The notes under the pieces are model-generated. The model did no database searches. It worked only from the letters and a program-made list of their open reading frames with translations, and was not told the DNA's origin. The position numbers and the translations under genes are program-made. 64,000 nucleotides of DNA from a virus: IMG/VR virus record IMGVR_UViG_3300031951_000076, positions 1 through 64,000 of that record. One strand, written 5' to 3'. Of the stretch, positions 2,793-29,200 are shown piece by piece (positions within the stretch are counted from its first letter, which is position 1; each line of letters opens with the position of its first letter).

Positions 2793-4733
2793 ATGGCAGA
2801 AGAAATAAAAATAGGAAGACATTGGGTTATGGACTATGAAACTATTTGTAATTGTTTCATTGGTGTATTTACTCATTATAAAAAAGATGAAACAAAAGTG
2901 TTTGTTGTTTGCGAACAGCAAAATGACTTTCCTGAACTTGTTTCTTTTCTACAAGACTGTGTTAATAAAAATCAATGGCATATATCTTATAACGGTTTAA
3001 ACTTTGATGCTCAGATATCTCAATATATTCTTGATGTACATACTAAATTAGCTCAACTAGATGGTGAATCTATCGCAAAAGCTATATATAAATTTGCACA
3101 AGAAACTATAGAAAAAACAGATAGAAATGAGTTTGCTACATATCCACCATCTAAACTAAAAATTAGACAAATTGATTTATTTAAAATGAATCACTGGGAT
3201 AATAAAGCAAAGATGTCTAGCTTAAAGTGGATACAATACTCTATGGACTGGAACAATGTAGAAGAGATGCCACATCCACATAACAAAGCTGTGACAGATC
3301 TTCACACTTTGGATTCTGTAATTAAGTATTGTATTAATGATGTGAACTCTACTAAGCAAATTCTAGATCATTCTAAAGAACAAATACAATTGCGCCAAAC
3401 ACTCACTAAAGAGTATGGTATTGATTTGTATTCAGCGTCTGAGCCACGCATTTCTAAAGAATTATTTCTTCATTTTCTTAGTAAAAAGCTTAAGTGGAAT
3501 AAGTCTGAGATTAAAGTATTACGTACAAAACGACAAACTATTTCCTTAAGTGAATGTATTTTGCCTTATGTTAAATTTAGCACGCCTGAATTTAATAGTG
3601 TATTAGATTATTTTAGAACAAAGATTATATCTTCTACAAAAGATGGTTTTAAACACACTATTAAATACAAAGGTGTAAAAACAGACTATGGTTTAGGTGG
3701 TATCCATGGTGCGATTGATTCTGGAGTATATGAAGCTAAACCAGGATGGACAATAATGACATCTGACGTTACTAGTTTCTATCCTAATCTAGCTATTAAA
3801 AATGGATTTCATCCAGCACACTTACCTCAAAGCGAGTTTTGTGAGCTGTATGAGTGGTTCTTTGAAGAGAGAAAGAAAATACCAAAGTCTGATCCTAAAA
3901 ACTATGTATATAAGATTATTCTTAACTCCACATATGGTTTGACTGGCGATGAAAATAGTTTTCTGTATGACCCAAAGATGACAATGCAGATCACTATAAA
4001 TGGTCAGTTATTATTAAGCATGTTATATGAAATGTTGTGTGATAATATCCCAGAGGCTAAACCTTTAATGCAAAATACAGATGGTCTTGAGATGATGATT
4101 CCTGTAGAGAAAATACCTGTATACATGAAAGTGTGTGAGCAATGGGAAAAACTAACACAACTTAGCCTAGAGCATGATGAATATACCAAAATGATTATTG
4201 GTGATGTAAATAATTACATTGCTATACACAAAAATGGTAAAACAAAGTGCAAAGGTAGATTTGAATGGGATGACTTAGAAAAAAAGAAAGTGAGTGTGTT
4301 TCACAAGAATAAAAGCTTTCTAATTATTCCCAAGGCGATTTATGCTTATTTTACACAGGGGATTCTTCCTGAAGACTTTCTAGAGCAAAACCAAAATATC
4401 TATGATTATTGTGGTGCTGTAAAAGCAAAAGGTGGATGGCATTTTGAAGAAAGAAATATTATAGATGGTAACTTATCAAACAAAAGACTTCAGAAGATTG
4501 TTAGATATTATATATCTAATACAGGAGGAAAGCTAGTAAAATGCCATAATGATGGTAGAGAAATACAGGTTGAAGCTGGTCAGTGGCTTCAAACTACTAT
4601 AAATCAAATGACTGACAAACCTTTTAATCAATATGATATAGATCTTAGTTACTATGTTGAGAGTATCTATAAAGAGATAACTCAAATAGAAAAAGTAAGA
4701 CCTAAAGCATATTATCAACTTTCACTTTTTTAA
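2793..4733 (+). CDS. Family B DNA polymerase (replicative, with 3'-5' exonuclease)
   Basis: A 646-residue protein with complete proofreading and polymerase motifs. The exonuclease part has Exo I MDYET (D14, E16), Exo II YNGLNFD (N67, D72) and Exo III Y179-x3-D183. Between the domains is YGLGGIHG (299-306), a motif of compact viral PolBs. The palm has motif A DVTSFYP (325-331), motif B K374-x3-NSTYG (378-382) and motif C NTDG (428-431), where the usual DTDS is replaced by a T-D-G form. All catalytic carboxylates are present, so the enzyme is expected to be active. It replicates the phage genome. Crassvirales are known to carry family A or family B polymerases. The gene follows a strong terminator and must therefore have its own promoter in the 40-base gap. 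The next gene begins 10 bases after its stop. Confidence 0.93.
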   Translation: MAEEIKIGRHWVMDYETICNCFIGVFTHYKKDETKVFVVCEQQNDFPELVSFLQDCVNKNQWHISYNGLNFDAQISQYILDVHTKLAQLDGESIAKAIYKFAQETIEKTDRNEFATYPPSKLKIRQIDLFKMNHWDNKAKMSSLKWIQYSMDWNNVEEMPHPHNKAVTDLHTLDSVIKYCINDVNSTKQILDHSKEQIQLRQTLTKEYGIDLYSASEPRISKELFLHFLSKKLKWNKSEIKVLRTKRQTISLSECILPYVKFSTPEFNSVLDYFRTKIISSTKDGFKHTIKYKGVKTDYGLGGIHGAIDSGVYEAKPGWTIMTSDVTSFYPNLAIKNGFHPAHLPQSEFCELYEWFFEERKKIPKSDPKNYVYKIILNSTYGLTGDENSFLYDPKMTMQITINGQLLLSMLYEMLCDNIPEAKPLMQNTDGLEMMIPVEKIPVYMKVCEQWEKLTQLSLEHDEYTKMIIGDVNNYIAIHKNGKTKCKGRFEWDDLEKKKVSVFHKNKSFLIIPKAIYAYFTQGILPEDFLEQNQNIYDYCGAVKAKGGWHFEERNIIDGNLSNKRLQKIVRYYISNTGGKLVKCHNDGREIQVEAGQWLQTTINQMTDKPFNQYDIDLSYYVESIYKEITQIEKVRPKAYYQLSLF

Positions 4734-11100: not shown

Positions 11101-11592
11101 TGTAGAACTTTCAATACCTAAAATTGAATATAGACTTGACCATGTTTCAACAATACTATTTGCAAATTGTAAGTCATTAAATGTAATTTGATCACTTTTG
11201 TACATTGCTTCAACAAGATCAGCATCAATCATTGCGGTATCTAATATAAAATCTAATTGTTTATCTACATCGGCTTCATTAAGATCTGAGATGGTCTTAG
11301 AAATATCTTTCATTATTTTTCTATACTCAGTCTTCTTTTGATTTTTTTGTTCTTTAGTTAGTTTTGGATCATTTCTAACAGCATCCATTGAAGCTCTTGC
11401 ATCTCTATATCGCTCTTTTAACATATTATTAGTTTCCATTAAAAGATCAGATACTTTTTTCTTTTTGGTAGTAGCAATAGATTTAAAAATATTATTTATC
11501 CCACCAAACTCTGTAAAACTATTTTCTGAAAGAACTTTAATAAGCTCTTCTTTAGTATACATTCTACCATTATATTCATACTGACAAGCCAT
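8110..11592 (-). CDS. Giant virion-associated protein (crAss-like cargo type), 1160 aa
   Basis: The last gene of the leftward late block. The 1160-residue protein begins MACQYEYNGRMYTKEEL, and the first third is charged and helical. Around residues 690-730 there is a Lys/Glu coiled coil (ELNKKLDDDKLSEKEREELE). The last third contains conserved-looking segments (LFKSWLPETVGVRFDPRHRD) and one hydrophobic helix at about 1032-1052 (IIITIWTAYLLLKAAV) that could span or insert in a membrane. No enzymatic motif is evident. The stop of the 3889-residue gene is 3 bases upstream of its start codon on the transcript, so they are co-expressed. By position it corresponds to the end of the transcription/cargo gene array of crAss-like phages, whose products are packaged and ejected with DNA. 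That role is inferred, not shown. Confidence 0.7.
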   Translation of the reverse strand: MACQYEYNGRMYTKEELIKVLSENSFTEFGGINNIFKSIATTKKKKVSDLLMETNNMLKERYRDARASMDAVRNDPKLTKEQKNQKKTEYRKIMKDISKTISDLNEADVDKQLDFILDTAMIDADLVEAMYKSDQITFNDLQFANSIVETWSSLYSILGIESSTDIKSERIRKKVQEVDAKFHDLSDQSRRIAIELVKAATGLSENEITKMKDTHLLTEWFRELGTSGIALPNEIAYAIKKVNTKINIEHNKNFVEIDLEYDKIKDIEEIKKNGFNIFFKVEKDKDGNDTLNLATRYSKKFIDARRSNNTMLRKDIEKANGDKALIKKAWQRFNAWNEANTVAFNSLYFLKPGEYTDAQRNDEVAKLKNLGFTKLEIDQIIAESQKLFEKFEEAMEEFRYDIENEAVKNPSVVPQSMTFEEYVDMKLKEFDDLNNPLKYMEQKFTENEKVTAYGGAKYSYLIAAKMIKGVPTEYYDENFSRIMNNPKLHNFYNWWVKFINDSLHWLPQEEIEDLGPNFVPVLADRLAKEYAFTNMKETVAGLGDWFTKAFTVANFERKPELGAYTKKERRGFEARFINESVPINERSRDMVLLAKMFSDMALAYKHKNTVKAEIETMVDIVQGTEGTYVKNKKLGKLEKRDKDATSIKSLVDYTVMKSFYGIQGEDEIYKSEKLFYDWKELATFGGWKNETAKKAKILVDEIKELNKKLDDDKLSEKEREELEQKVEEKEREYYSLGGRNFSVTKTLDSAVANTRLIALGFSPFSAIRNLLVGKINNRIHAASRRDYTMKELIWANQTIIESSGKYFSMGTYQTKMTKLIFGLLSDAGLAEGEDGMYLKAMVNKKTTVDKFREMIPKAYTWLASGDYHFKAETLLSAMKFEKIKTKDGKEVSYIDAITEDREYDVQKYGEWDASKNGNKSFEEYYLDSLLRYRQLANKLHGATGKDVHIKAKGNAVGRVLMLFKSWLPETVGVRFDPRHRDALLQRDEEGYYRTFGRLLLDKKFKMVPLMAKALMGSDKLDLEDQLEIANIRKAAKEFQIIITIWTAYLLLKAAVPDDDKSKKLYNLLILRQLHDLRRDLTYYMSPSSAAELQANVFPIIRTAVNYGKAVQAVYNYMLETRDDKGQIEYDGERTLLRVTKVLPILSNLNRIEYYKKATGY

Positions 11593-11595
11593 AAT

Positions 11596-14500
11596 TTAGC
11601 ATTTAATTTTAATTGATAAAGCTTTTACAATGTCTGAAAGATTATCTGAAATATTTTTTTCTCTAATCTCTTTTGTAACAATTGATTTTTGTATTGAATT
11701 TTGATCTGTTTTATTACGAGATTGAATAAGTCCTACAATTTTTGTTACACCTTCTTTAAGAACCGAGTCTTCTTTAATATTAATGTTAAGAAGTTTAAGA
11801 AGATCAGCAAGCATGTCCATGATTCTATCAAGAACACTTTTCTTACCATCATATGTAATGTTATTCATAAACTCTTGAAACCCTGAGTCTGTCATCAACA
11901 TACTCACAAAATCATGAATATTAGTTAATCCATAATACAATGATTTGTCTTTTGCTGACAGCATTCCATCTTCTCTATTCACTTGATCCATAGCTCTTTG
12001 TAAAGCAGGACCGTGAACTGGATCTGATAAAAGTTTTTGTTGTACAGCTTTAAAAAGATCATTAAGATCTTCAACCCACTTTCTTTGTTCACTGCTTAAG
12101 GTTTCTGGTCTAGCCATCAACAAATCAGCTGTTAAATGATGCATAAGCTCATGAACAATAACATCATGTAAACTTTTCACTGCACCGTCTAAATCAAATG
12201 AATTATTTTCTTGTAAAATTAATTCAGGATTGATTGATATAGTTTTTGTAAAGCTATTGTATTCTCCAGGATTTTTCAAACTTCTGTTAATAACAATTTT
12301 AAAAGGTGTTACAATCCCTGTTTTACCAATCATCATTAACAAACTCTTATTAAAACTATTTGTTTGCTTATAGAGCCTGTTTAAAAAGTCTTTACTATTA
12401 GTTTCTGTATCCTTACCTTGGAATAAAGCAGTTATTGCGTTATCCATAGCATCATTCATTAATGAATTTAAATTCAATTCAGTAGGATCAACTATGTCAC
12501 GAACAGATGTAGTTTCACCAACAACAGGTGCTACAGATGTAGAAGCAGGTTTTACTGCATTATCAAGTTTAGTTTTAGATTTATTGTCGTCTCTAATTGC
12601 TCCTTGAAACACTTCTTGGTTATGAATTATTCTAGAACCGCGAGGTTTTATGACAATTAATGTACCACTAGTTCTTGTCAAAGAAACATACATAGAACTA
12701 AATATATCATCTTGATTAATTTGAGCATTTTGTCGAGCTTGTTTTACATTATAGTCACCTACAATAACATTTTTAATACTATTACCTTGTGCAGTGTGAG
12801 ATGAACCTACATACGAAGGTGTAAATGGCATTTTTTTACTTGTAAGTCCTCTTAATTCTGCAGATATATTTTTAAACTCACGATAATGCATGCTAAAAGT
12901 TGCCAAAACATTTCCAGTTTTTGCATCTTTTATTTTTATATCTTCTTGTCTAGAAGTTTTAGAATTGTATTTACCCATTTCTACACTCAAACCAAGAGGT
13001 TTTCTATAACCACGTATTTTATTCTGTCTATTGTATAATAAAATATTTTCTGTAGTAACATCAAAGTCAGGTAAATGTCTTCTTAAATCACTAGATACTA
13101 CATCCTTAATTGATTCAACATTACTAACAATATCTATTATTTTATAACGAGACCTAGGTTTTATTATACCTCCAGATACATTAAAAACTTCTCTATCTCG
13201 ATTAAAAGGAACTTTTCTTTCCTTTAGTAATGCCTCTAGTTTTTCATCTGAAGTTTTATATTGAAACTCAGATCCTCTCATTTCTAATGCATCAGTAAAC
13301 TCAACATAGTCTCCATTTGAAAAGTTTCTATGATCTACTTGTTCAATCTGTTTACCAATCTTTAAGAAATATAATTTTCTAATTTTATCAGCTAAATTTA
13401 TTGTATTTGGATTTTCAACTCTATTATAGTGCACCCAAAACATTCCATAAGGATTATTATTTTGAGATAGAAAATCTGTATAATCGTCTATAACACCAAC
13501 TTCATTGTCAACAACAAGCATATTTTCTGTTGACTTATTTGTTAACGCATCATACTTATCAAATGAAAGTTGTCTAGGTTGTTTACCTTCTTTTGTTCTA
13601 TTAATATTATCTATTATCTCATTACCTACAGAGTCATAAATCTGATGTAATAATTTATCACCAGATCTCATTACCTGAGTAAGTTCTTTTGTTTTTTCTT
13701 TATTTAAAAGAAGGGTTGAAGATATAATACCTTTGTTAACAAATGCATTTTGTTGTTCACCAATTGGTCCCAGCTGACGATAGTCACCCATAAAAATAAA
13801 TATAGGCATTTTAAAACTATGTCCATTTTTTAAATCATATGCTGTTCTCTCAAGCATATCTTTAATGTCTTGTGTAGTTACCATTGATGATTCATCTACA
13901 ATAATAACATCAGGTGAGCTAAATGCTGGTTTATATTTTAAACCAAGAGCATAGTCTTCCGTAGAAGCCATTACTAAGTTTCCATTTTGATCAATCTTGT
14001 TTCTTCTTACAGCTGATGGTATTGTATTTACAGTGCCATCATTTGCTTTTTCAGAGTCAAGTCCAAGGGATTCTTGTAATACAGTTGCAGCTGTATGACT
14101 TGGTGTTAAATACATTATACTAACACCTCTATATTTATTACCTGAATCTAAGCTATCCATAATAGCTCTAATAACTGTTGTTTTACCAACACCACCTCTA
14201 CCAGCTAAACCAATCATATTATCCCACATAACTTTAGGAATAACACCACTAAACTTTATAGATAAAGGATCTAAGAAAGAAACTGTATTTTCTAATTCTT
14301 CAACACGAACTCTTTTTGAGTCTTTTAATATTTTTTCTACGTTTGCTTTAATAAAGTTGTAAGCTTCTTGCTGACCATCATTCATTAAGTATTTAGTGTT
14401 CTCATCCTCAAATATCACCATATTGTTAGGATTAGAACCCTCTGGTACATTTATACGTTTACCAGTCTCAGGATCTAAAGATTTTTTAATTATTTCTTTA

Positions 14501-17500
14501 GAACTTTCTACTATTTCTGTATCATTCTCTAATCTACCAGCAAGAGCTTTGTTTACTCTATTATGTATGTCATCACTTGTAATTTGTGTGCCATATGTTG
14601 ATTCTTGTAAAGAATAAATTTCTCCTGCAATATCAACATAGTATTTAGGTTTTGTTGGCATATCTGTCAATGTAACAACATTTTCAGGATATGTCTCAAC
14701 TTGGTAAGCTAATGTAACTTTATTATAAAGCGACATGTCTTCAACTTCTTTTGTTTTTACACCATCTTTATCTGTGTAAAAAACTTTAAAACCTTCTTCA
14801 ATACTTCCTTCAACAATAAAGTTTGAATTTTTATATCCTATCAAAGTAGAAGGTTGTTCATCAATTTCTTCTTCAGATGTAACTATAGATTCACGACTTT
14901 TGTAAGGCTCGTTTGTTCTTACTTCAAAAGCTTTTGGTAATATAATATTATCAGGAATACCAAACTTATCATTCATTCTTCTAAACAAATCTTTCATTTG
15001 TTCTACACTTCTTCCTGCAAGTTTTGTTCCTATTTCTGTTACATAGTATTTATTATCAGGATTATTTAACGCCTCAATTCTTAAAGCATTTAAATCTTCA
15101 ATAGTCATTTTATCCATAGCTTTTTTATTCTCTTCTGTAAGCTTAGGATAAACAGTAAGTTTATCATCCTGGTACATTTTAGTTCTAATAGCAAATGATC
15201 TACCTTGTAAACCACTTGCTTGACCTGTAATAGCACCAAAATCGTCAACAGCTGCTTTAGCAGCACCTAATCCATGAACACCTTTATCATTAGATCCAAA
15301 GACAAAGTATCCATTTTCAGGTAGATTTTCTTTAGTAATTTTATCTAGTGTAGTTTCTCTTTTTAATTCTTCTTTTACAACTTCTTTAGTTTTACCAAGT
15401 GTATTATTATATACATCTCTAATAGCTTGTTTAGCTGCTTCTTCAATTTCAGGTCCTTTGTATTGCTGTCTTTGCTCCCATTGACCTGTTTCTTTATTTT
15501 TAACATTATAAGCTTCAATATCTCTACTACCAACACCAGCAAAATTTCTAGTTAATTTAGGTGTTTCAGTTTGAACAAACTGTTTACCATCATATTTAAA
15601 CCATGCACGGTTGTTTAAATCCCATACATAAACAGGTTTATTTAATTTTATACCTAATTGTACAGCAACATTTGTCCCACCTTTAACTTTATCAAACTTA
15701 TATGATTTAATAGACTTAGTAGGATCAGTTAAATTATCTGGTTTTGATTTATCTATAGATGAATCTAACTCAGCAATAGCATACACAGCATCTGCATTAG
15801 CTACTTGATAATAGTTTCTCACTTTAAGATTACCTTCTGTTGTATCTGGATAATCTTCACCAAGAAGTCTTTTAACCTCAGCTCGTGCTTTATCCATTTC
15901 TTGTTTTGATAAAACAGTTGCTTGAACATTACTATCTCTTAATTTTTTAGAAAGTCCTTTATTACTTTCTTCTCTATAGTGTTTATGATTTTGTACGCCA
16001 AATTCTCTACCTATTACGTCCCAGAATGTATCAGCACCATAAGCGCCTCCAGAATGATTTACATAAACTGCAGGGTTACTTAAATCAAATGCTTCTACTT
16101 CTAAACCTTGTACCAATTCTCTAAGATCACTTTCTTCTTTTGCAAAATCAGCTGCACTTACATCAACTTGATTATTCTTAATAGATGATTCAAGTCTAAG
16201 ATTGTTAAAATCATATTCTTTAACACTTTTATATCCAAGAATATTAATTCTTTCATACTCAGCAATACCATTCTCAGGTATTGCCTCACTTACTCTTTTA
16301 TATAAGTAATTAACTGACCAGTCATTTTGAGGAAAGAAATCACTTGTATAACTATCATTAATTAGTATATAAGCAGGATATTTAAAGTCTACATTTCTTT
16401 CAGCAGCTATTTTTCTTTCTTTGTCATTTAACTTTTCAATTTTCAATGATTTAACAATAGACTGTGTTTTTTCATTAACTTGAAAATCCCCCACTTTAAT
16501 TTTAAAATTTTTGACATCTTTTAATGTCGCTGCATTATTTATTAAAGGTTTAAGAGATTGTTTAAACGCATTGTCTTTATCATTATTAGTTGAATAATTA
16601 AATTTAACACTATACTCTTCAGGATTATTCTGAACAATTTGATCTTTTAAAATATTAACACCAAATTGATTACCTAGAGTAAAGTTAAATTCATTATCAA
16701 AATCAGCAATTGAAGTTTGAAAATCTATATCTCTCATGTAATAATCAACAGGTATAAATCTTTGAATGTTACCAGCATCTCCTGTAGCATATGGATATAA
16801 TGCAAGTTCTCTTGCAATCTCTCTAACTATTTCATTTTCTGAAGTGGCTAGTTCATAAAAACCAGAAAGTATTTCTTTCTCGTTCATGTCTGTACCAAAT
16901 GGTGCTTTAAAAGATATTAAATAAGCATCACCTTTATATTGAGGTTCAACTTCAATATATTTTAAAAAGCCATTTGTAATAAATTCAGGATTTTGCTGAA
17001 GCTCTAATATACTTTTACCTAAAGATGTATCACCATTTAAAAGCCTACTTCTGTCTGTTTTTAAGTCGCCAAATAACTCTAAGTTAGGCATTGTGTACAT
17101 ATATGCTTTTATAGCATTAAAGGCGGTTTCATAAGCACGAATGTATCTTTCTCTTCCCAAGTCTTCTTTGTCAAGTCCCATGTCGTTTAATAAACTAACA
17201 ACTATATTTTCAAGTGTTCTACCTGTACTAACAGGAAACAACTCTTGATATATAGACTGAGCTTTTATAAGAGAATATAAAATTGAATGCCCAATTTCAC
17301 CTTTTGGAACAATTGAAATAAGACCACTATCAGAATCTTTATTTACTGCGCCTGCAACATTTGTAATATCTATAAATACAGATGATTTAGATAGTTTATT
17401 TAACTGATTTATCTTCTGTAGTGTTGTAAATACATCTGCACCTATACCTTTAGTATATGTATAAACAGATCCAAGTATAGTCATAAACTCTTTACCAATC

Positions 17501-20500
17501 TCATCTAATCTTGAGAATAATTCCAATGAGTCATACTGAGTTACATAATAATCAAGCAATAAATCTTTAACTGATTTATATCCTAAATCTTTTGAAAGTG
17601 TTAAAAGTTTTTCTTCTTGTACATCTCTAATGTTTTCACCTTTTGCTAAAGCATCTTCTTGAATTAATGCTCCAAAAACTGCTTGATTATTTGATGATAA
17701 AAGTTTACCAACAATCCACATATTTTCTAATTTCTCAACACTAAGTGGATCTTGTTTTTTCCTTTTTGAATCAGAAAGATATGCTACTAAAGATTCTTCA
17801 TCTTTAAATTTATCTAGACCACCTATTTTTCCAGTTATTTCACTTGCTATTTCTTGTACACTATTAACAAAAGCATTAGATTCAAATCCTTCAAATGAAT
17901 CTTGTTTCTTATTAATACGTCTAAATAAATCGTATATAACCTCTTGTGATGTTAAGTCCATTGAGAACTCAATTGGCAAAGCCACTTTATCTTCTGTTGT
18001 TAGCATATTTAAAATACCAACAGAACTCATTGCTTTTTTATCCCAGTTAAACTCTCTAAGATTAAGATTTTTAGCATTATCTACAGATTCACCAAATGGA
18101 ATATTTATGTTTTCACCTACAGTGTAAGTATTCCCAGCTTGTGATTTAGATTTACCATTTTGACCAATAAAAACAAACTCTTCAACTTTACCATTTACTT
18201 TTATATAAATGGGAAGTTTCACTGCTTCAAATCCTTTACCATCTTCTTTTTCAGTCATATAACCAAGCGTCAAAGGTTTATCTTGAAAGTCAGCTTGTGC
18301 AGAAATATAGTTTGCAAAAACAGATACACCATCTTTACCTGATCTATTATCTTCATGTCTTTTAATACTTGTGTTAAAATCAAGAGGTAAAACAACAGAA
18401 GGATCAGTAGATATATTATATTTCTCAAGAAGTTTACTTCTTTTATCAATTTTTACCTTTACTTCTGGAGAATCGATAGATTTTGTAATTTTTTCAAAAG
18501 CATCAGGATTTGTTAAAACAGTCCAATGAATATCTTTATACAACTCTTTTAACTGATCTTCATCTAAACTATCAATATCTTCAACTTTAGTTAGTTTATA
18601 AGGAATAGATTTATAACCAATAATATTTCCTTTTGAATCTTTTTGTGCAATTGATTTTGACTTGTACGCATAAAGTTTGTCAATATCAAAGTCAGAACCC
18701 ATCTGACCAGTAATACCATCAGGAACTATTATAGTATCTTCCATATATTCTGGGAGAAAACCTACCACTTCAACAGGTAATGTTGAAGGAAGACTTTGGT
18801 TAGGAATACGTGATGCAACAAGTCTTAATAATTTAGGATCAAGTTTAGACGTATCAAGTATTTTAACCTTATTTTCCTCTTTGATAAACTGTTTTAGGTC
18901 TATAAGTTTACCATTTTCATCTTTAATGTATTGTGATACAATTATTTGTGCTGGTTTAACTTCCCCATCTTTTTTTGAAATATAAGCAAGAGATGCTTTT
19001 CCATCTTTAAAAGTAGACGCATATGTATCAGTCCATATAATATCTGATTTAATAGATTCACTTAATGTACCAAACGTAAACTTAGAACCAACACCACTAA
19101 CTTGAATAAAGCTTGATCCATTCATTTTTAACATTACATTCTTGTTAATCATTGAATTTATCAAACCTTGAAGTTTCTTTGCTTTAGGATTTAATTCAAT
19201 TGGAAAAGCAATTTTCTTTGTTAAAGAATCTAACTGAATTGCTCTTAAATCGTTTTCACCATAACTTCCACTTGTATCTTCTAGTATTGTTTTTCTTAAT
19301 AGCTTGTAGAGACCTATATGATTTGCTTTTAAATTACCTAATTCTTGATCAAGCTCTTCTGATTTTAGTTTAAATAATCTAGTACGAACTCTTTCTTTTA
19401 AATTTTTTAATTCAAGTCCAGTTACATCACCCAGACCTTCCATTTTAAATACAGAATCAAGCAAACCATCAAAAAGAGTACGATTCATTTGTGTAATGAA
19501 AGGTATTTCATCTTTTTGATGAGGAATCTCTTGTTGAGTTCTTAAACCATCTCTACTTAAAATTTGCGTTGCTTTTTCTGTATCTTCTTTTGAAGGTTCT
19601 ACAAAGTTTCCATTTTTATCAAATAAAACTACAGACACTGTAGGTCTTCCAAGTTTTTTACCTGAAGCAAAATTTACACTATTAATATCATTTTGCTCCA
19701 TCCATATTCTTAGCTTATCTCTTTCACTACCTGCTTCATGTTGTGGTAACAAAGGATATCTAGATGACTTTACATAGTCAATTCTATTTAAACCAGTGTC
19801 TCCTTCGTTTTGATCACTAACCTGTACTGGTTTTAAAGGAGTAAATATAACTTTAACTTCAAGATCACTTAGTGTATAATAACCACCTTTACCTGCTTTT
19901 CTGATTTTATTTGTAATTGACTCCCATACATCTAAATCTATTTTACCTTCACTTGCTAAAAAGTCAATATGTTCTTGAACTGTTGTAAATTCTTGAGCAT
20001 CTGTAGTATCATTTTTAACTTTATTTACAACTATTGTTAGATCATCAGCTGTTACAGCTTTATAATCTTTACTAAAATATCTTTCACCTTTAGATGTAAC
20101 CCAAGACCAGTTACCTTGTGATCCAGGTGCAATTAAAGCTGCGGCACGCTTTGAAAATTCATCCCATGTGGTAAGAGCAATTTTAACTTTTTCGCCACCT
20201 GTATACTCATTAAAAGCTTTTTTAGTTAAACCTTTTGGCATTTTAAAAGCTACCATTGGATCAAACCTTAAAAACTGAAGTGTTTTAACTTGAGCATTCA
20301 TATAGTTAAGCTTCATATCCATAACCATTGCCCTTGCTAAATCACGTCCTTTTAAGTCAGTACTTTTAAATCTAAATAAATAATCGTTTGCTTTACCAGA
20401 TTTAAATGATGGAAAAGAAAATACTCCTTTATCAACTTTAAAAATACCATCAGCAACATAGTTGTTTATATCATCTTCAACAGACTGTTTAAACTCATTT

Positions 20501-23265
20501 AATACAACATTGCTTATAATCGATCCATGATTTTGCTTTAATTGTTCAATTGTATAATTACCAGAATATAAATCTTTTCTAAAGTTTTCTAAAAATGGGC
20601 TACTATTTAATATAGGTAGAATATAAAATAACTTCGAAGATGTATCAAAATTCTCAAGATTTACTTTGTCAGCATACTTTTGTGCAGCAAGTATTCTACT
20701 GATTTCAGGTTCAACAAAATTGTTATATATCTTATCTTTTAAGAAATCTGTATATACGATTTCATTGTTTTGAATTTTAAAATCAGTCCCTTTACCAACT
20801 GCAACCATTTCATTATCTACAAAAAACTCTTTTGTCATTTTTACTTCCATAGAAGTTGTCTTATCAGACAAAGTAAACAAGACATATGTACCAGTTCTCA
20901 TGTTTTCTTGATGTTTCATGAACATAGCACGTGTCTGTTCGTTATTTGTAAGATTCTTTCGTGTCTTACCATCTTTGCCAGCTTCTTGTTCTCTCACTCC
21001 ATTAAAATAATCAAGAGAAAAAGTAATAGCTTCATTTTTAACCTTAGTCCAAAATTCTTTATTTGGTTGAGCAAAAGGACTATTTAATAAATAACTTGTT
21101 TCACCTAGAGCCCATTGACGTTTTTTAATTTCAACAAAGTTTGTATTTATATTAGAGTACTTTGACTTACCTGCAGCATCTTTACCAGATGGTACATTAA
21201 TCATACCAGGGTTTGCTTCGTAATAAAGTCTAGCTAACTTATTTAAATTTTTTCTTTCATTTTGAATACCGTAGTTACTTAAAAAAGGAGTTTTTAAGTT
21301 TTTTGAATAACCTTGATATATATTATCTAACATACCATTAGGTGTAAAAACTATACTAAGTGATTTTCCTTTTTTAATTTTATCACCAAGTCTTTCACCA
21401 AAATAATTAATTTGTTTATCTGTAAACTTTATACCCAATACATCAAAGAACTCTTTAAGTTTAGTTTTTTGTACTTCAGGTGTTCCAGCTCTACCCTCTT
21501 CAATTATTTTATTAAGTCTTTCAACTTTAGCTTTGTTTGGAAATAAATCTCCATTAGCGGTCCTGTCAAAAAAATCTGAGTTTAATTGTTGTGCAAACCA
21601 ACCTTTAGCGACTTGCTCTTCAACACTTTCTCTATTAATAGCTACAACTTTTACTTCTTTTACACCTTTAACCTCTTTACCAACCTTATTAAGTTTGTAT
21701 AATACAAGAGTTTCATTTGCAAAGGCTTTACTAGCAAATGTTAAAACCTGATTAATTGTAGACCATTGATTGTTTTTTCTAAAGTTTTCAAGTTTGTTTA
21801 TAAACTCAGCTAAATAAGGTCTGGCTTCTACTAGTGATTGTAAACTAGTTACAAATGCTTTATACTTATCAAAGTCTTCTGTGTAACCACTAAGTTTCAT
21901 ATCAACGCCTGCACTTAGTATATCTTGAAATACATCAGCAGGGTTAGCATATAGAGGAATGCCCAGTTCATATTTACCAGGTATTTGGATATTATTAACT
22001 AAAGATTTTACAGTGGCACTGGCTGTATGTAATGGGTTAACTTCATTAATACCTTTATCAAATCTTTCACCAATTTCATTTTGTGCTAAAAGATATTCTT
22101 CAGTTTTATCTTCTTCTTCATTTGTTACATCTTCAGAATTTACTTCCTGAATTTTCCCATTCACTTCACGAATACCCATCTTTAATAACTCTGCTTTCAC
22201 AAAGTCTTTATACTTATCAAACTCATTGACTATTGATGAATACTGGTCTTGAGCTTTGATAACATCACTATAGTTTTTAACTCCCTGTAAATTAAAATTT
22301 TCTAATAAAGCATTAAGTTTAGCCTCATCTTTTTCTTTTAACAAATCATATACTTGTTCTGATTTAACAGTGTTAAGAAAATCATTAACATTTCTTAAAG
22401 ATGCAACAAACTTATATTTTGCTTTATTAAAAGCTGATTCAAAACTTGTATTTAAAATTTTACCTGGACTAATTTCACCAACAGCATCTAAAAATAATGA
22501 TTGAATATAGCTTGTATATTTAATTTCTTTTTGACTAATCATCAATCTTCTATCAATATCTTCAGCTATTTCTTCTGTAGTTTTAGCACGTATTGATCTA
22601 AAAACACCAGCTGATTCTACAAACTTTTTAAATCCTTCTATATCTTGTTTAGAACCTAATATGAGAGCTTGACTTGGTTCAAATATTACAATTTGTTTTT
22701 CTAACCAAACTGTTTCAGCAGATTTAGTAGCATTATATTCTTCAACTTTTTCTGCAATTATAGCATCATAATTTGTTCCAAATACAGTATCACCTTTATA
22801 TATTTTTACTTGTGTATCTAAATCCTCATAATCAATTGGTTTAGTAATTGTTTTAGGATTTTTTATATTTAATAATATAGAATATAATACAGCATTATCT
22901 TTATTTTGAAGTTGTCTTTGAGCATGTTGTAATGCTTCATTTGGATTAACTGCAAAATAATTTCCAGATACTCTAGTAGATTTTTCAAATTTCTGTTTAT
23001 TATCATAAATACTTCCATGATAAACAATATCCTTCACTTTACTATCAGGAAATATAGTATCAAGATATTGAGAGTATTGTTCTGCTGTTCCTATAGAAGC
23101 TAATTCAGGATTCAAATTAAATACTTCTTGCACTCCTGGTTTTAAAGTTACTTCAGTAACAGGTACCACCTCACCATACTTAAAAAAAGTACGCCAAGCT
23201 TCTACTTCACCAACTTCTTTAACTAAACTATTCCATTCAGGGCTGTTAATATTAGGACAATGCAT
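11596..23265 (-). CDS. Giant polyvalent virion RNA polymerase with helicase and peptidase domains, 3889 aa
   Basis: Domains in order: an ART-like N-terminal region (YHGS at 82-85, then NYFAVNPNEA), as in ART-PolyVal domains; an RNA polymerase core with SRIPNQSLPS, resembling the RAPTLHR element of beta' subunits, followed by DFDID at 1525-1529, the metal-binding loop of crAss-like RNA polymerases; a SLOG/YpsA-like domain (SGGAYGAD near 2403, GGTNVAVQLG, FAGVGSRD, AIRDVY near 2620); a phage FGSN-type domain (FVFGSNDKGVHGLGAAKAA and GLQGRSFAIRTK, about 2650-2690); an SF1 helicase with Walker A GRGGVGKTT (K3028), Walker B VDESS (3123-3127), GDYRQLGP, a motif V-like SSHTAQGNS and MYVSLTRT; and a HELMH zinc-peptidase motif at 3705-3709. 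Crassvirales virion polymerases enter the host with the DNA and transcribe early genes. Fusion to a helicase and peptidase suggests a single ejected multifunctional protein, perhaps self-cleaved. Subdomain boundaries are approximate. Confidence 0.85.
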   Translation of the reverse strand: MHCPNINSPEWNSLVKEVGEVEAWRTFFKYGEVVPVTEVTLKPGVQEVFNLNPELASIGTAEQYSQYLDTIFPDSKVKDIVYHGSIYDNKQKFEKSTRVSGNYFAVNPNEALQHAQRQLQNKDNAVLYSILLNIKNPKTITKPIDYEDLDTQVKIYKGDTVFGTNYDAIIAEKVEEYNATKSAETVWLEKQIVIFEPSQALILGSKQDIEGFKKFVESAGVFRSIRAKTTEEIAEDIDRRLMISQKEIKYTSYIQSLFLDAVGEISPGKILNTSFESAFNKAKYKFVASLRNVNDFLNTVKSEQVYDLLKEKDEAKLNALLENFNLQGVKNYSDVIKAQDQYSSIVNEFDKYKDFVKAELLKMGIREVNGKIQEVNSEDVTNEEEDKTEEYLLAQNEIGERFDKGINEVNPLHTASATVKSLVNNIQIPGKYELGIPLYANPADVFQDILSAGVDMKLSGYTEDFDKYKAFVTSLQSLVEARPYLAEFINKLENFRKNNQWSTINQVLTFASKAFANETLVLYKLNKVGKEVKGVKEVKVVAINRESVEEQVAKGWFAQQLNSDFFDRTANGDLFPNKAKVERLNKIIEEGRAGTPEVQKTKLKEFFDVLGIKFTDKQINYFGERLGDKIKKGKSLSIVFTPNGMLDNIYQGYSKNLKTPFLSNYGIQNERKNLNKLARLYYEANPGMINVPSGKDAAGKSKYSNINTNFVEIKKRQWALGETSYLLNSPFAQPNKEFWTKVKNEAITFSLDYFNGVREQEAGKDGKTRKNLTNNEQTRAMFMKHQENMRTGTYVLFTLSDKTTSMEVKMTKEFFVDNEMVAVGKGTDFKIQNNEIVYTDFLKDKIYNNFVEPEISRILAAQKYADKVNLENFDTSSKLFYILPILNSSPFLENFRKDLYSGNYTIEQLKQNHGSIISNVVLNEFKQSVEDDINNYVADGIFKVDKGVFSFPSFKSGKANDYLFRFKSTDLKGRDLARAMVMDMKLNYMNAQVKTLQFLRFDPMVAFKMPKGLTKKAFNEYTGGEKVKIALTTWDEFSKRAAALIAPGSQGNWSWVTSKGERYFSKDYKAVTADDLTIVVNKVKNDTTDAQEFTTVQEHIDFLASEGKIDLDVWESITNKIRKAGKGGYYTLSDLEVKVIFTPLKPVQVSDQNEGDTGLNRIDYVKSSRYPLLPQHEAGSERDKLRIWMEQNDINSVNFASGKKLGRPTVSVVLFDKNGNFVEPSKEDTEKATQILSRDGLRTQQEIPHQKDEIPFITQMNRTLFDGLLDSVFKMEGLGDVTGLELKNLKERVRTRLFKLKSEELDQELGNLKANHIGLYKLLRKTILEDTSGSYGENDLRAIQLDSLTKKIAFPIELNPKAKKLQGLINSMINKNVMLKMNGSSFIQVSGVGSKFTFGTLSESIKSDIIWTDTYASTFKDGKASLAYISKKDGEVKPAQIIVSQYIKDENGKLIDLKQFIKEENKVKILDTSKLDPKLLRLVASRIPNQSLPSTLPVEVVGFLPEYMEDTIIVPDGITGQMGSDFDIDKLYAYKSKSIAQKDSKGNIIGYKSIPYKLTKVEDIDSLDEDQLKELYKDIHWTVLTNPDAFEKITKSIDSPEVKVKIDKRSKLLEKYNISTDPSVVLPLDFNTSIKRHEDNRSGKDGVSVFANYISAQADFQDKPLTLGYMTEKEDGKGFEAVKLPIYIKVNGKVEEFVFIGQNGKSKSQAGNTYTVGENINIPFGESVDNAKNLNLREFNWDKKAMSSVGILNMLTTEDKVALPIEFSMDLTSQEVIYDLFRRINKKQDSFEGFESNAFVNSVQEIASEITGKIGGLDKFKDEESLVAYLSDSKRKKQDPLSVEKLENMWIVGKLLSSNNQAVFGALIQEDALAKGENIRDVQEEKLLTLSKDLGYKSVKDLLLDYYVTQYDSLELFSRLDEIGKEFMTILGSVYTYTKGIGADVFTTLQKINQLNKLSKSSVFIDITNVAGAVNKDSDSGLISIVPKGEIGHSILYSLIKAQSIYQELFPVSTGRTLENIVVSLLNDMGLDKEDLGRERYIRAYETAFNAIKAYMYTMPNLELFGDLKTDRSRLLNGDTSLGKSILELQQNPEFITNGFLKYIEVEPQYKGDAYLISFKAPFGTDMNEKEILSGFYELATSENEIVREIARELALYPYATGDAGNIQRFIPVDYYMRDIDFQTSIADFDNEFNFTLGNQFGVNILKDQIVQNNPEEYSVKFNYSTNNDKDNAFKQSLKPLINNAATLKDVKNFKIKVGDFQVNEKTQSIVKSLKIEKLNDKERKIAAERNVDFKYPAYILINDSYTSDFFPQNDWSVNYLYKRVSEAIPENGIAEYERINILGYKSVKEYDFNNLRLESSIKNNQVDVSAADFAKEESDLRELVQGLEVEAFDLSNPAVYVNHSGGAYGADTFWDVIGREFGVQNHKHYREESNKGLSKKLRDSNVQATVLSKQEMDKARAEVKRLLGEDYPDTTEGNLKVRNYYQVANADAVYAIAELDSSIDKSKPDNLTDPTKSIKSYKFDKVKGGTNVAVQLGIKLNKPVYVWDLNNRAWFKYDGKQFVQTETPKLTRNFAGVGSRDIEAYNVKNKETGQWEQRQQYKGPEIEEAAKQAIRDVYNNTLGKTKEVVKEELKRETTLDKITKENLPENGYFVFGSNDKGVHGLGAAKAAVDDFGAITGQASGLQGRSFAIRTKMYQDDKLTVYPKLTEENKKAMDKMTIEDLNALRIEALNNPDNKYYVTEIGTKLAGRSVEQMKDLFRRMNDKFGIPDNIILPKAFEVRTNEPYKSRESIVTSEEEIDEQPSTLIGYKNSNFIVEGSIEEGFKVFYTDKDGVKTKEVEDMSLYNKVTLAYQVETYPENVVTLTDMPTKPKYYVDIAGEIYSLQESTYGTQITSDDIHNRVNKALAGRLENDTEIVESSKEIIKKSLDPETGKRINVPEGSNPNNMVIFEDENTKYLMNDGQQEAYNFIKANVEKILKDSKRVRVEELENTVSFLDPLSIKFSGVIPKVMWDNMIGLAGRGGVGKTTVIRAIMDSLDSGNKYRGVSIMYLTPSHTAATVLQESLGLDSEKANDGTVNTIPSAVRRNKIDQNGNLVMASTEDYALGLKYKPAFSSPDVIIVDESSMVTTQDIKDMLERTAYDLKNGHSFKMPIFIFMGDYRQLGPIGEQQNAFVNKGIISSTLLLNKEKTKELTQVMRSGDKLLHQIYDSVGNEIIDNINRTKEGKQPRQLSFDKYDALTNKSTENMLVVDNEVGVIDDYTDFLSQNNNPYGMFWVHYNRVENPNTINLADKIRKLYFLKIGKQIEQVDHRNFSNGDYVEFTDALEMRGSEFQYKTSDEKLEALLKERKVPFNRDREVFNVSGGIIKPRSRYKIIDIVSNVESIKDVVSSDLRRHLPDFDVTTENILLYNRQNKIRGYRKPLGLSVEMGKYNSKTSRQEDIKIKDAKTGNVLATFSMHYREFKNISAELRGLTSKKMPFTPSYVGSSHTAQGNSIKNVIVGDYNVKQARQNAQINQDDIFSSMYVSLTRTSGTLIVIKPRGSRIIHNQEVFQGAIRDDNKSKTKLDNAVKPASTSVAPVVGETTSVRDIVDPTELNLNSLMNDAMDNAITALFQGKDTETNSKDFLNRLYKQTNSFNKSLLMMIGKTGIVTPFKIVINRSLKNPGEYNSFTKTISINPELILQENNSFDLDGAVKSLHDVIVHELMHHLTADLLMARPETLSSEQRKWVEDLNDLFKAVQQKLLSDPVHGPALQRAMDQVNREDGMLSAKDKSLYYGLTNIHDFVSMLMTDSGFQEFMNNITYDGKKSVLDRIMDMLADLLKLLNINIKEDSVLKEGVTKIVGLIQSRNKTDQNSIQKSIVTKEIREKNISDNLSDIVKALSIKIKC

Positions 23266-23271
23266 TCTTAT

Positions 23272-26200
23272 TTATTTTTTAGATTTTGGCTTTGTATTAC
23301 ATTTATCTTTTTCTTTCTCTACTTGTTCATCAGTCATTTGATTTGCAATTGCTATACGATCTAGTTGTGCAAAAATATCATCTGGATTTACAGCTGCTTG
23401 TTCACTAGAAACTTCTGGTTTTTCATAATAAAGATCTTCCATTGCAAATGGGTTATCATATGGACCCACTGTTTTTGGATTAATTACTCCTTGTTCTACA
23501 TCATTTTTTTTATATTCTAAACTTCTTCCGTATTTATCTTTTTTAGAAATAACTTCATATTTATTTCCTTTTTCATCATACAATACATCTCCCACCTTTG
23601 CAAATCTTAATTGTGTTTTTGCAGATTTCTTTGTTTGTTTAACGGTAGGTTTTACTTCTGCAGCTGCTAATTCTGCATCAACACTAGCTTTAATTTCACT
23701 AGTAAGTATTGTAGAATCATTAAGTATTTCTTGTTCTTCTTTAGAAAAGCTAGTGATTATTTTACCAGCTTTTAGTTCTTTGTAAAGTTCTCTAGCTAGT
23801 TCTGCATCATATTGAGCATTAATTCTTCTTTTTTGCTTTCCATAATCATCATCATACATACCTCCTTCATCGTCATATTTTTTAAGTGCTGCTTTTCTTC
23901 TTTCTTCTATATTAGCTTTTACATTAGAAACCGAAGCTGTAGCAGGTTTAGCTCCTTCTAAAGCAGCTAGTTCTTTTTCTAGTTTTGCTTCAATAGCTCT
24001 ATGACGTTTACCATCTTCTGTTTCTGGTGCAGCCCAACTTCCTGTAAAAGAATTTTGCCATTCTGTTATAAGATTTCTTACTGACTCAGGTACATATTTA
24101 TTGTATAATTTAACTTTTTGCTCCTGTGATGCTTGTTCACTTTCACCAGGTCTATAAGTAAATGTACCATCTCCCCAATCTTTCTTTTCAGAAAAAAGCT
24201 CAACTCTACCTTTACTATTTCTATCAATAACTAGTAAAAACTCTTTACCACTGTCACCAATTACCTCTACGCTTACTTGTGTACCCTGTTCTCTAATCCC
24301 TGCAGCTACAATAGCTTTCTTATCAGAAACTACAGGAGCTATTGGTTGTGTTAAAGCAGCTAGTTCAGCATCGTATATTTTATCAATTTCTTTTTCTAAA
24401 AGTTCTTTAGTTTCAAAATCAGTTAACTTGTATTGTTTAAAAGTATTAGTATTTTCTTTTTTATGAACTCTTATCACAGTTCCCCATCGCTGACCTTTAG
24501 TTCCTAATACAGAAACAACAATATCTTCTTTTGCATCAGTTCTAAAATCTTCAATTTCTTTTCTTCTTTTTTCTATATCAGAAACAGGAGCTGTAGGAGC
24601 TGGTGTTACAACAGGTGGTTTTTCAAATGTATCACCTACAACAACTTCTTCTTCTTTTGGTTTTACAACAATAGCGTCTGTATTGGATGACATTTTAATC
24701 ACAGGGTTAGCAAAATACACCCAATCACCATCTTTGTTTTTAGAAGGAATACCTTCTTCTACATATGTCATTGCATTCTGCATGATGTATTCATTATACG
24801 TCATGGGTGTAATTTTCACTTCATTGTTTTGTATTGTAACAAAAGGTACTTTTTTAGTGTTATTGATACCAACAAGATTAGGATTTCTTGGATCAGTAAA
24901 TTTAACTGTTGTTAAAAGATTTTGCATCAAAGAAATAACATTACCAGGAAGTTCACTAGATAAAACAATTGGTTTACCATCGTTATTGAACCATTCACCA
25001 TCTGCAGTTTTTACTTGCAAATATAAATGTCCTTGTGCTGTAATATTAAGTCTTGCTAATCCATTAGCTACATCACTACCGTTACCAATTTCAGAAAGCT
25101 GTTCCTTTTTAAGACGTGTAATAAATTGATCAACATATCTTTGTAACACTCCAATATCAGGTTTACCTTCTGACATTTCCATACCTAAAGCTTTGTAAAT
25201 TCCTTCAACAAGCTTAGGATTCATTGTTTCACCTACAAATGCTTTCCAAGCTTCAATTATAAGCTTAGCTTTATTCTCACTCACCTTTGGAAGTTTAACA
25301 TATGTAGGAAAAAATGTACCACGAGGTGTTGGTAATAACAAAACAGATACACCACTTTGGTTATCTATTTCTTCTGTAAATGATTTTGTATTTTCAACTT
25401 TATCAATAACTACACCTGCATCTACTTGTAGCTCACCATTTTTTACAATAGCAAACATTCCATGGCGATTGTCAGTTCCACCATCTGCTATTTTTGGATT
25501 AACTCTATCTTTAATTACACCAGGATCTGTTGTATTTCTTAAGATACCTATTGACTTTCCTTCAACTATTCCATTCATTTCAAAACTTGGATCATTGTTA
25601 AAATTATCCAGTATAAATTTACGAAATTTTTGATTCTTTGCAACTTCTTCTTTTACCACGGTCGGCAAGTCCATATCTAACTGATCTTCAGGAACAACAA
25701 TATTTACATACTTGTTAAATATTTTATGGTTAATCCACTGTGGTTCATGGAATGTTCCAATAAGTTTTTCTTTACCTTCTATTGTAGCATATACACCAAT
25801 TGGAGCATAGTCATACATTTCAGGATTAACTTTTCCATCTGGACCAAAAATGTTTCCAGCATCATAAACATCCCCAGTTATTCTATTTGTTACAGTTGGG
25901 AAATCTTTTGTCATCACTCTATAAGTCAGTGACGAACCTTCAGGAAAGTTTCCTGTCGCAATATCAAAAACATAGTTTGTATTTACACCAGTTCTAACTT
26001 GCGTAACTACATCACCAGTAACTCTAAATTCAGCTATATCAGTTGTATTAGCTAATGAGTTACTTGGAGCAGTTTGTCTTCTTCCTTCTTGATAAGTTAC
26101 ATTAGCTGTATTATTATCAGACCTTGATGATTGTAATCCTGTTGTATCAAAACGATTATTCTGAACAAAGTCTCTAACCGCAGATGGATCATCTTCAATA

Positions 26201-29200
26201 AACTCAGAATATCTAATTTTATATGTACCGTTTTCAAGTTTTCCTAAAAAGTCATCAATCAAAGCTTTATCAAAACTAGTTTCACCTGCATTATTAGTAA
26301 CAATGTAGTTTACTGCTTTACCAGGAATAACAGATGCTATTTTGTATATATTACCTTGATCATCTGTAAACTCATTATTTACTTGTATTTGATCAAAATA
26401 ATTAATTTCAACATCAGGTTTTGGTTCTGCTTTCTTTAAACTACTTGCTTCTACAAATCTTTTAACACCATCAGATGCAACTAGTGGATTACCTTCTAAA
26501 TCTTTTAAATGATAAACCACTCTACCATCTTGTGTTTTAGTTATTTCAGCTACGGTATATTCTTTATCTTCAAAAACAACATTGTCATCTATTTTATATT
26601 CTTCTGTTTTTGGTTTTGGACCACCTTTTAATCTTTCATATCGCTGTCTTTCAAATTTACCGCTTGTTTTTTCCCATATTTCATAAGGCGGTGTTTCTCT
26701 ATCTGCAGCATCATTTGACGCTTTAACCTTATTATATTGTTGTTGTAAATATTCTTCAACAGTATTAGGTATTTCTTGTCCTTCAACGTCTTTTGCACGT
26801 TTAAGTTTACCTGTTTTTAAATTATCTAAAAATTCTTCTTCAGTAAATCCAATATTATCATCAGTTCCATCTAACGCATTTAATAAAATTAAATCACCTA
26901 ATGGAGCTATATCATATTTTTTACCATTAAAAATATAATTTTCTGTAAAATCAATTCCTGAAGTTTCTGTTTGTTGCTGCTGTTGACCTTGTTGACCTTG
27001 CTGTTGTTGACTTTCTAACTCTTTTCTTCTTTTTTCTTCTTCTTCTTTTTTCTTTTCTTGTTCAATTTCTTCTAAAAACTTTGCTCTCATTACAACAAGA
27101 TCATCAGTTATTAATTTTTCATTAATAGCCATATCAATAATCTCGCGCTTAGAGTAATTTTCAATTTCTTCTTCTGTTAATCCATTTTCTTTTAAAAGTC
27201 TAGCAGCAGATGTATAAATGTTATCACTTAGATATTCATCCACTTTATAAAATATATCATCTAAAACAGATGGTTTAAGCTCAAGATTAAATACTCTTTT
27301 AAAGAAATCACTAAGTGCATCTACAAATTCAACCCAAAGTGATTTTTTTCCTGTTAATCCAGGTACTGATGTTAGCTCTTTCTGAAACTCTGGATTAGAA
27401 TAAGCCTCAGCTAAAAATTCTTGAATGTTTGTAAAACCATAATAACTAGTATCAATACCTCTATCTTCTAAGGTTTTCTTAGCGTAGTTGTAAAGTTTTT
27501 CTATATCTCTTGTAAACTTGCTGTTATAAGCAAGCTCATCACTAGTTAAAAGGTGAATAATCTCATGAAGCATAACGCCCTCAAATGACATTTTACCTTC
27601 ATGTAAATCAGGATCAATCGTTATTGTATTACTACCTAATGTGTAAAAAGCTGGAGCTATAGTTTGATTTCTATCAAATTTTACTTTTGCGTCATCTTTT
27701 ATACTATCATACAAGCGAGCTAAAGCCATTCTTAGATAAGGATCTATATATGGATTTGCTGCCATTTTTTGTATCATCGGTTTAAGAGCAACAGTCTCGC
27801 CATCTTGTACATCATAGTATTCCATTATATCTTCTGCAATCCTATCATCATCTTTCATTCTATACAAGAAAGTGGCGTTTGTTCCTTTTTTTACCCAAGA
27901 TGTACCTTCTTCATATTTTTTACCTTTTCTTTCTTCTCTTCTTTTTTTTCTTTCTTCATCTGTAAACCTTTGACTCTTACCTCTTTCTGCACGATCAGCT
28001 ATTTCATTAAAAGGTTTTACAATTACATTATCAATATATTCTTTAAAGTTAGCAGCACCGTTTTTAGTATCAGCATACTTTGCCCATTCTAATCCAAGTT
28101 GTCTAATTTGATTTTGTAACTGACTTGATCTTTGTTGTCTACTATATAATTTGTTCCTTAAAATAACATTTTGTACTTGATTTCTATTTGCTTTTTCATA
28201 CTGATACAAACCATCTGGACCTTTTTTAATTGTCTTTAATGCTTCTGGATTATCTTTCTTTAAGGTGTCTAATTCTTTTTGAAGTTCGTTTAATACTGTT
28301 TTAGCTAAAGCTTTTTCAATAGGTTTTTTATCACTAATCTCCATTCCTTCAATATAATCCTTTTGAGAATCAATTCTTAATTGTAAATCATTTAATTGAT
28401 CTGCAAGATCATCTGATAAACCTATATCTTCTTTAGCTATTTGATTAAGCATTTCATTTTTAAACTCATTATTATCAGCTGTTGTTTCATTTACAAGATT
28501 TCTATATATTGCAAGTCTAGTTGCAAGCTCAGTCATTTTGTTTTTTCTAGCCTCTTCTTCAGGAAGCATTCTTCCACGCCAGTCTTTTTTAAATATAATA
28601 TCATCGTTCAAAATTTTATTTTGAGCGATCATTTGTTTAGTTAAATTTTTATATTTTTCAATTTGTTGTGGTGTAGTTTCATCAGGAGTAAAACCTAATT
28701 TAGCAAGCTCACCTGCATCAGTTCTTCCAACAGCATCAAGTTTACCAAGTAGTGTATTTTCTAAACCTAATTGAATATGTGCATTTACAAATTGAGCAAA
28801 GGCACTATCTCTTAATAAATCTCTATGAAATTTATTTTCTACAGTGTTTGCAGCTTCAATAGCGCTATTTACATTATTAAAATTGTTAGCAACATTAAAA
28901 AGCTTACTTTGATTAATTGTTGGTTTACCTTTTTCGTCCAAAATAATTTGCTCTTCTGATACCTCATTACCATCTTTGTCTTTAGTTGTTACCATTTTTG
29001 TTTCAAAAATGTTACCAAACTTTAACCAGTTTTGTTGGGCTTCATTATAAAACTTTACAGCTGCTTTAGTAAACTCATCATTTCTTTTTGCTTGTTTAAG
29101 TTCACTATAAACACTCATCCCTCCACCTAAAATACCACCTAAACCAATACTTATAGATGCTTCAGGATCTTTACCTGTAACAGCATTTAATGTTTGATTC

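Follow-up and report, generated by a model that had tools for sequence, protein, structure and literature searches.

The gp66 protein of the crAss-like phage phi14:2 is an RNA polymerase that is carried in the virion, ejected into the host, and used there to transcribe early genes. It is a two-barrel, single-chain enzyme (PDB 6VR4), and its gene lies between those of gp67 and gp65, the order also found in the DNA described here. The record annotation of phi14:2 gp65-gp67 is based on virion MS/MS. The equivalents in crAss001 (gp47, gp50, and gp49) are virion cargo; according to the structure paper on that phage, packing and contacts between the cargo proteins probably determine their order (PMC10172136). 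Virion polymerases joined to a metallopeptidase and an ADP-ribosyltransferase (ART) are already known as a concept for N4-type polymerases, and for polyvalent proteins in general a peptidase-driven separation of the parts has been proposed (Iyer 2017, PMC5512222). In this study, we analysed the window, a 64,000-nucleotide stretch (positions 1 to 64,000) of the 88,670-bp virus record IMGVR_UViG_3300031951_000076. An earlier note, made from the letters of the window, had pointed to a giant protein with polymerase, helicase, and peptidase motifs. Here, this protein (P0001), its two neighbours (P0002 and P0003), and the placement of cysteines at the ends of the three chains are described.

PHROG matches in the window genome included a terminase (7e-68), a portal (5e-95), and a major head protein (7.5e-33); such names alone do not fix an order. 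As judged from these matches and the gp65- and gp67-like neighbours, the terminase, portal, capsid, and transcription block appear to fit the Crassvirales type, and we leave the genome unplaced as to lying within or beside the order. Elsewhere in the window, two proteins with long Thr/Ser-Thr-Thr repeats (60305-63925 and 57137-59605) and glycosyltransferase-like ORFs (54124-57102) were noticed by eye. The features of the transcription block are listed in Table 1.

Table 1. Features of the three-gene transcription block, in window coordinates.
Feature	Residues	Position	Strand	Basis
P0002, gp67-like partner, 2442 aa, with its own zincin		23272..30600	-	Family membership
P0002 Cys2434 codon, sole cysteine of P0002, 9th residue from the C-end	2434	23299..23301	-	Sequence
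P0001, polyvalent virion-type RNA polymerase chain, gp66-like, extended, 3889 aa		11596..23265	-	Translation, 6VR4 match, AF2 model
P0001 Cys3 codon, one of only two cysteines, faces P0002 C-end	3	23257..23259	-	Sequence
ART-PolyVal-like ADP-ribosyltransferase domain of P0001	80-199	22669..23028	-	Pfam PF18760, E 3.7e-5, 25.0 bits, below the cut-off of 31.2
Two-barrel RNA polymerase core	740-1617	18415..21048	-	6VR4 E 9.4e-22; AF2 pLDDT 84.5; Foldseek E 1.6e-36
Catalytic DFDID	1525-1529	18679..18693	-	Three Asp invariant in 37-39 relatives (alignments)
SLOG/DprA-like domain	2401-2566	15568..16065	-	phrog_768, E 2.8e-7
phrog_2072 domain of unknown function	2649-2786	14908..15321	-	PHROG match
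SF1B (RecD/Pif1/Dda-like) helicase	2987-3545	12631..14307	-	Motifs I, II, III, IV, V, and VI in order; Pfam
Helicase Walker A, GRGGVGKT (K3028)	3022-3029	14179..14202	-	Motif position
Predicted zincin domain, HELMH at 3705-3709	3604-3880	11626..12456	-	Iterated profile, motif position
P0001 Cys3889 codon, last residue, faces P0003 N-end	3889	11599..11601	-	Sequence
P0003, gp65-like RNA polymerase-associated partner, 1160 aa		8110..11592	-	Family membership
P0003 Cys3 codon, sole cysteine of P0003	3	11584..11586	-	Sequence

The frame of P0001 is uninterrupted, as the earlier note had held, and it lies on the minus strand; the plus strand of the same interval has many stops throughout. Residues 740-1535 were matched to phi14:2 gp66 by phmmer. 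An AlphaFold (AF2) model of residues 900-1800, built on an alignment of 37 sequences with the annotated-record rows left out, had a pTM of 0.81, and its top PDB match in Foldseek was 6VR4 (TM 0.70), followed by the RNAi polymerase QDE-1. This whole-fold match, rather than strand-by-strand tracing, supports a gp66/QDE-1-like fold with two double-psi barrels in the modelled part. The proposed kinship with the virion-type polymerase of phi14:2 was thus borne out by match and model alike, and the suggested fold comparison did not yield a fold lacking the barrels. Of the two polymerase motifs named in the note, DFDID stands where it was placed, and RIPNQ was found at residue 1486, not at 1525. The polymerase, helicase, and HELMH motifs of P0001 are far beyond chance. 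P0001 is almost certainly an RNA polymerase of the phi14:2 gp66 type.

The neighbouring genes place P0001 in a trio. The downstream product P0003 is a member of the phi14:2 gp65 family, which in crAss002 gp33 and Carjivirus gp44 makes up the C-terminal part, and the upstream product P0002 is related to phi14:2 gp67. Because of this homology, these neighbours, and the virion data for phi14:2 and crAss001, we infer that P0001 is the gp66 member of an ejected transcription trio consisting of gp67-like P0002, gp66-like P0001, and gp65-like P0003. By homology and gene context, P0001 is very probably carried in the virion and ejected. The zincin of P0002 (approximately residues 918-1151; window 27148-27849) is homologous to that of P0001.

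The helicase region carries DESSM at residue 3124, GDYRQL at 3160, SSHTAQG at 3488, and YVSLTR at 3526, and it matched Pfam AAA_30 (E 9e-15) and PIF1 (4e-7), both over the curated cut-offs. The complete SF1 motif set claimed around K3028 was confirmed by the motif positions and these two families. On this sequence evidence the domain appears to be a genuine SF1B helicase, and it is likely to be active. The model of the helicase-zincin part, built on six sequences only, reached a pLDDT of 45 and was discarded, and a scan of the PDB with the helicase profile gave no usable match; the RecA-like fold is therefore a prediction from sequence. HELMH was found at residue 3705 as claimed, within a domain conserved across relatives. 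A Pfam search with the zincin, SLOG, and phrog_2072 pieces gave nothing over cut-off. The profile search suggested in the note succeeded in Pfam for the SF1 region (AAA_30) and for the peptidase region only with an iterated profile, which found the domain, with HExxH kept, in about 80 related ORFs. The zincin is accordingly a predicted metallopeptidase. It is the most constant partner of the gp66-type polymerase, being located on the same chain, in the next gene (phi14:2 gp65), or in the previous gene (Carjivirus gp45). The ART-like, SLOG-like, and phrog_2072 domains were absent from the earlier note. With its polymerase, SF1 helicase, and zincin, and weaker ART-PolyVal and SLOG matches, P0001 qualifies as a polyvalent protein that would be injected.

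More than 500 IMG/VR contigs were matched in a scan with the polymerase core, and 80 were retained (set 1). An SF1B helicase was present in 22 of the 79 relatives in the polymerase tree, and most of the 79 had the zincin. The helicase occupied at least three positions, namely before the zincin (as in the window clade), after the zincin, or N-terminal to the polymerase. On the tree, the helicase label changed 15 times, with at least 13 changes on strongly supported branches. All helicase matches in the fetched loci fell within polymerase ORFs, the exception being L002, in which a relative of the window chain is truncated. The closest full-length sister, L001, is 58% identical over the whole length and retains the polymerase and the order of helicase and zincin, which is also the order in the partial sister L002. 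L001 had no ART-like domain match, and in its protein P0004 an AlkB-like 2OG-Fe(II) oxygenase (residues 2470-2686) occupies the phrog_2072 slot. The combination of polymerase, helicase, and peptidase, which the note had thought possibly unusual or undescribed, is not unique; the 22 helicase-bearing giants and crAssphage cr50_1 gp059 in GenBank rule uniqueness out. As read from the sequences, the polymerase-helicase fusion recurs as a variant form of the polyvalent virion polymerase. Polymerase and C-terminal zincin would form a chassis, onto which exchangeable modules that serve the opening minutes of infection (ART-like, SLOG-like, phrog_2072 or AlkB, and SF1B helicase) would be plugged.

In all six members of the window clade, the chain has a helicase in the slot before the zincin. 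These helicases are of two distant SF1B types, and a tree in which the six were constrained to one clade was rejected (p-AU 0.017, with long branches as a caveat). It follows that the slot was kept and its occupant swapped, and the arrival of a deeply different second helicase in the same slot argues that a helicase is useful there. Most likely, it would open or move incoming DNA for the polymerase, or help genome entry. A different reading is that the helicase plays no part in transcription and is a passenger conflict module, acting for example against host nucleases, like the ART or AlkB domains. Its patchy presence and varied position speak for this, as do the near twins L035 and L037, of which only one has the helicase. 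We nevertheless consider the passenger reading the less probable one, though a serious contender, since all six clade members keep a helicase in the same slot despite the swap for a distant type. The polymerases of L035 and L037 are near-identical (short branches), and the difference between them represents a recent gain or loss of the SF1 helicase.

The window trio contains four cysteines in 7491 aa (8110-30600), each located at an abutting chain end. The crAss001 proteins have end cysteines at C2339 of 2341 in gp47, at C5 and C2404 of 2412 in gp50, and at C5 in gp49. In set 1, a cysteine was present at 47 of 48 free gp66 C-ends and at all separate gp65 N-ends (45/45), and at none of the outer C-ends of gp65-fused chains (0/23). 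Where the polymerase chain had an N-end cysteine, the product of the upstream gene ended with one (last 10 aa) in 32 of 36 cases, and otherwise in none of 35. The rule, that cysteines stand on both sides of free joints and not at fused or outer ends, was written down before the sequences of a second set were read. This set 2 comprised 80 further loci from a crAss001-type query. There, 58 of 62 free C-ends had a cysteine, compared with 2.1 expected from uniform placement, which rules out chance; the gp65 N-ends scored 60/60, the fused C-ends 0/12, and the gp65 outer C-ends 0/59. Across both sets, the gp67-like family had a C-end cysteine (last 20 aa) in 70 of 74 chains and an N-end cysteine in none of 42. 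That any chain end would carry a cysteine is ruled out by the outer ends (0/59 and 0/42) and the fused ends (0/35). The rule held in about 150 related contigs; the members of each set are related, so that the counts are not independent trials. The exceptions are L083, L118, L123, L146, and L147; L154 keeps its N-end cysteine though scored as gp67-fused, and two of the four free-C-end failures in set 2 (L105 and L153) have a break inside the polymerase. Set 1 had an interior cysteine content of 0.021% and set 2, which is more gut-like, one of 0.156%, versus 1.16% in other ORFs, some of which are perhaps spurious. In a literature search of paper text, with Drobysheva 2020 and Yutin 2018 outside its scope, neither end cysteines nor cysteine depletion in ejected phage proteins was found to have been reported before.

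The cysteines follow the fusion state of the genes. The polymerase chain had both end cysteines in 49 of 53 cases with neither neighbour fused, only the C-end cysteine when gp67 was fused (18/19), and only the N-end cysteine when gp65 was fused (10/10). With both neighbours fused, neither was present (9/9), and these chains have 0 cysteines in 46,202 aa. The count leaves out L039, L057, L074, L084, L105, L153, and L013, in which the polymerase frame is broken within the catalytic region or close to it, the breaks being taken as introns, frameshifts, or sequence errors; 32 chains without a gp67 partner in the fetched stretch stand outside the classing for the gp67 joint. Since cysteine presence follows fusion state, the gp67 C-end goes with the gp66 N-end and the gp66 C-end with the gp65 N-end, and we regard the specific pairing of the chain ends as likely. 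On the 79-polymerase tree, fusion state changed 9 times at the C-end and 10 times at the N-end. The strongly supported contrasts (two at the C-end and four at the N-end) agree with the rule and are too few for a sign test; among random pairings of contrasts, nearly all at the C-end and all at the N-end agreed.

The best explanation of the whole, to which we give a probability of about 0.65, is a virion polymerase trio strung together by thiol joints. The capsid would carry P0001, which would be threaded along the tail and refold in the host, where it would transcribe early genes. The C-end of each chain would be bonded to the N-end of the next through their thiols, most likely by a disulfide formed in the producing cell or after leaving it, and the trio would exit the virion as one string in a fixed order and a 1:1:1 ratio. 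The host cytosol would then reduce the joints, and the chains would come apart. Where genes are fused, a peptide bond would take the place of the joint and the cysteines would be gone. Cysteines in the interior would cross-link a chain that has to unfold, and would have been purged for that reason. Judged from the sequence pattern, pairing of the ends by a disulfide is rather likely; release through reduction by the host is more tentative, at slightly less than an even chance. Stated for the group, we lean towards the view that Crassvirales tie their injected giants head to tail by terminal-cysteine disulfides into one thread that passes the tail and is parted in the reducing cytosol, with gene fusion as an interchangeable solution and the thread kept cysteine-free. 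Several points stand against the disulfide: gut members (set 2) tolerate interior cysteines, anaerobic gut surroundings may disfavour such bonds, and a handful of ends break the rule. Assembly, too, takes place in the reducing cytosol, so that only the capsid, or the time after lysis, would be left for making the joint. Disulfides are present in other proteins of crAss001 virions (PMC10172136).

The cysteine pattern offers a way to join and release parts besides a peptidase. By analogy with polyvalent proteins, the zincin may process the polymerase chain, and such processing and an end-linked string can be true together. In its exclusive form, the proteolytic explanation states that after ejection the zincin cuts polymerase, helicase, and accessory enzymes apart from one another and that the cysteines are incidental. 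This agrees with the regularity of the zincin in the same chain or an adjoining gene, with the proposal of such processing (Iyer 2017, PMC5512222), and with the HExxH domain that N4 vRNAP also has (PMC12633501). It is unlikely all the same, as a conserved internal cleavage site was not identified, separately encoded chains need no cleavage, and the cysteine rule would be left unexplained.

Less probable still is pairing without a disulfide, by a shared metal ion or a reduced non-covalent contact that docks the chain ends during packaging. Even phages of the anaerobic gut conserve a single cysteine at each end, packaging happens in the reducing cytosol, and pairing by co-loss fits any two-cysteine contact. 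However, two cysteines supply only two metal ligands, no other His or Cys close to the ends was consistently kept (by eye), and the scarcity of cysteines inside the chains, most marked in set 1, fits oxidation better. A by-product of a nucleotide signal at gene boundaries (translation coupling or a ribosome-binding sequence) with no protein role, which the abutment of most genes within a few bases and the richness of the chain ends in Lys codons might suggest, is refuted. In crAss001, as in over 20 further loci, the gp67-like gene lies on the other strand and the cysteines of the gp67 C-end and the polymerase N-end persist all the same, so that gene adjacency is excluded as a cause. Cysteines are also missing from the other block ends (gp67 N-end and gp65 C-end) and where the polymerase is interrupted at its catalytic barrel (L105 and L153; intron-like or sequence errors).

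Among ejection proteins of other phages, T7 gp15 and gp16, P22 gp7, gp16, and gp20, and N4 gp50, gp51, and gp52 (L182, L183, and L098) have no cysteine, and T7 gp14 has one, at residue 2. The cysteine-free proteins are as expected if cysteines endanger a chain that unfolds outside a reducing compartment. The absence of cysteine may mark ejected proteins generally and could then be used to annotate cargo. For specialists, the surprising part is the end-cysteine rule, and the domain combination is a variant of the known polyvalent virion polymerase. A rule about one residue that extends from phi14:2 to crAssphage points to a possible redox switch and bears on how podovirus-like phages order and hold together an ejected cargo of megadalton size. 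The polymerase-helicase fusions are natural single-chain enzymes for asking whether a crAss-type polymerase opens promoter DNA alone.

The end cysteines of phi14:2 are placed as in the window: gp67 C1797 (the last residue), gp66 C3 and C2179, and gp65 C3, with no others. Unlike P0001, phi14:2 gp66 (2180 aa) has no helicase, SLOG domain, or zincin, the zincin being in gp65. The giant 'virion structural protein' of Flavobacterium phages Fpv1 and Fpv3 (4287-4401 aa; PHROG 16227) resembles P0001 in its polymerase core (32% identical) and C-terminal zincin. It differs in lacking a helicase and in a long extra N-terminal part, which its length suggests to be a fused gp67-like region; it has no cysteine at the N-end and one at the free C-end. 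The crAssphage cr50_1 protein gp059 (4774 aa) has a polymerase motif and an SF1B helicase on one chain, as does P0001, with the helicase instead at the very C-end and HExxH N-terminal to the polymerase. Its end cysteine is at 4773 and its partner gp060 begins with MQC. This human-gut protein (NC_055868; L184 2923-17247) is filed only as 'DNA helicase', a name that hides the RNA polymerase. The polyvalent virion RNA polymerase of N4 (Iyer 2017) combines domains of polymerase, metallopeptidase, and ART type in one chain that is injected, as P0001 would be; its polymerase is T7-type, not two-barrel, no SF1 helicase has been reported for N4, and the cysteine-free gp50, gp51, and gp52 have no end cysteines. 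P23-45 gp96 is a two-barrel virion polymerase within a giant multifunction chain, as is P0001, but it is fused to the tail tape measure, its structure differs from that of gp66, and the text of the paper mentions no helicase (PMC10770324).
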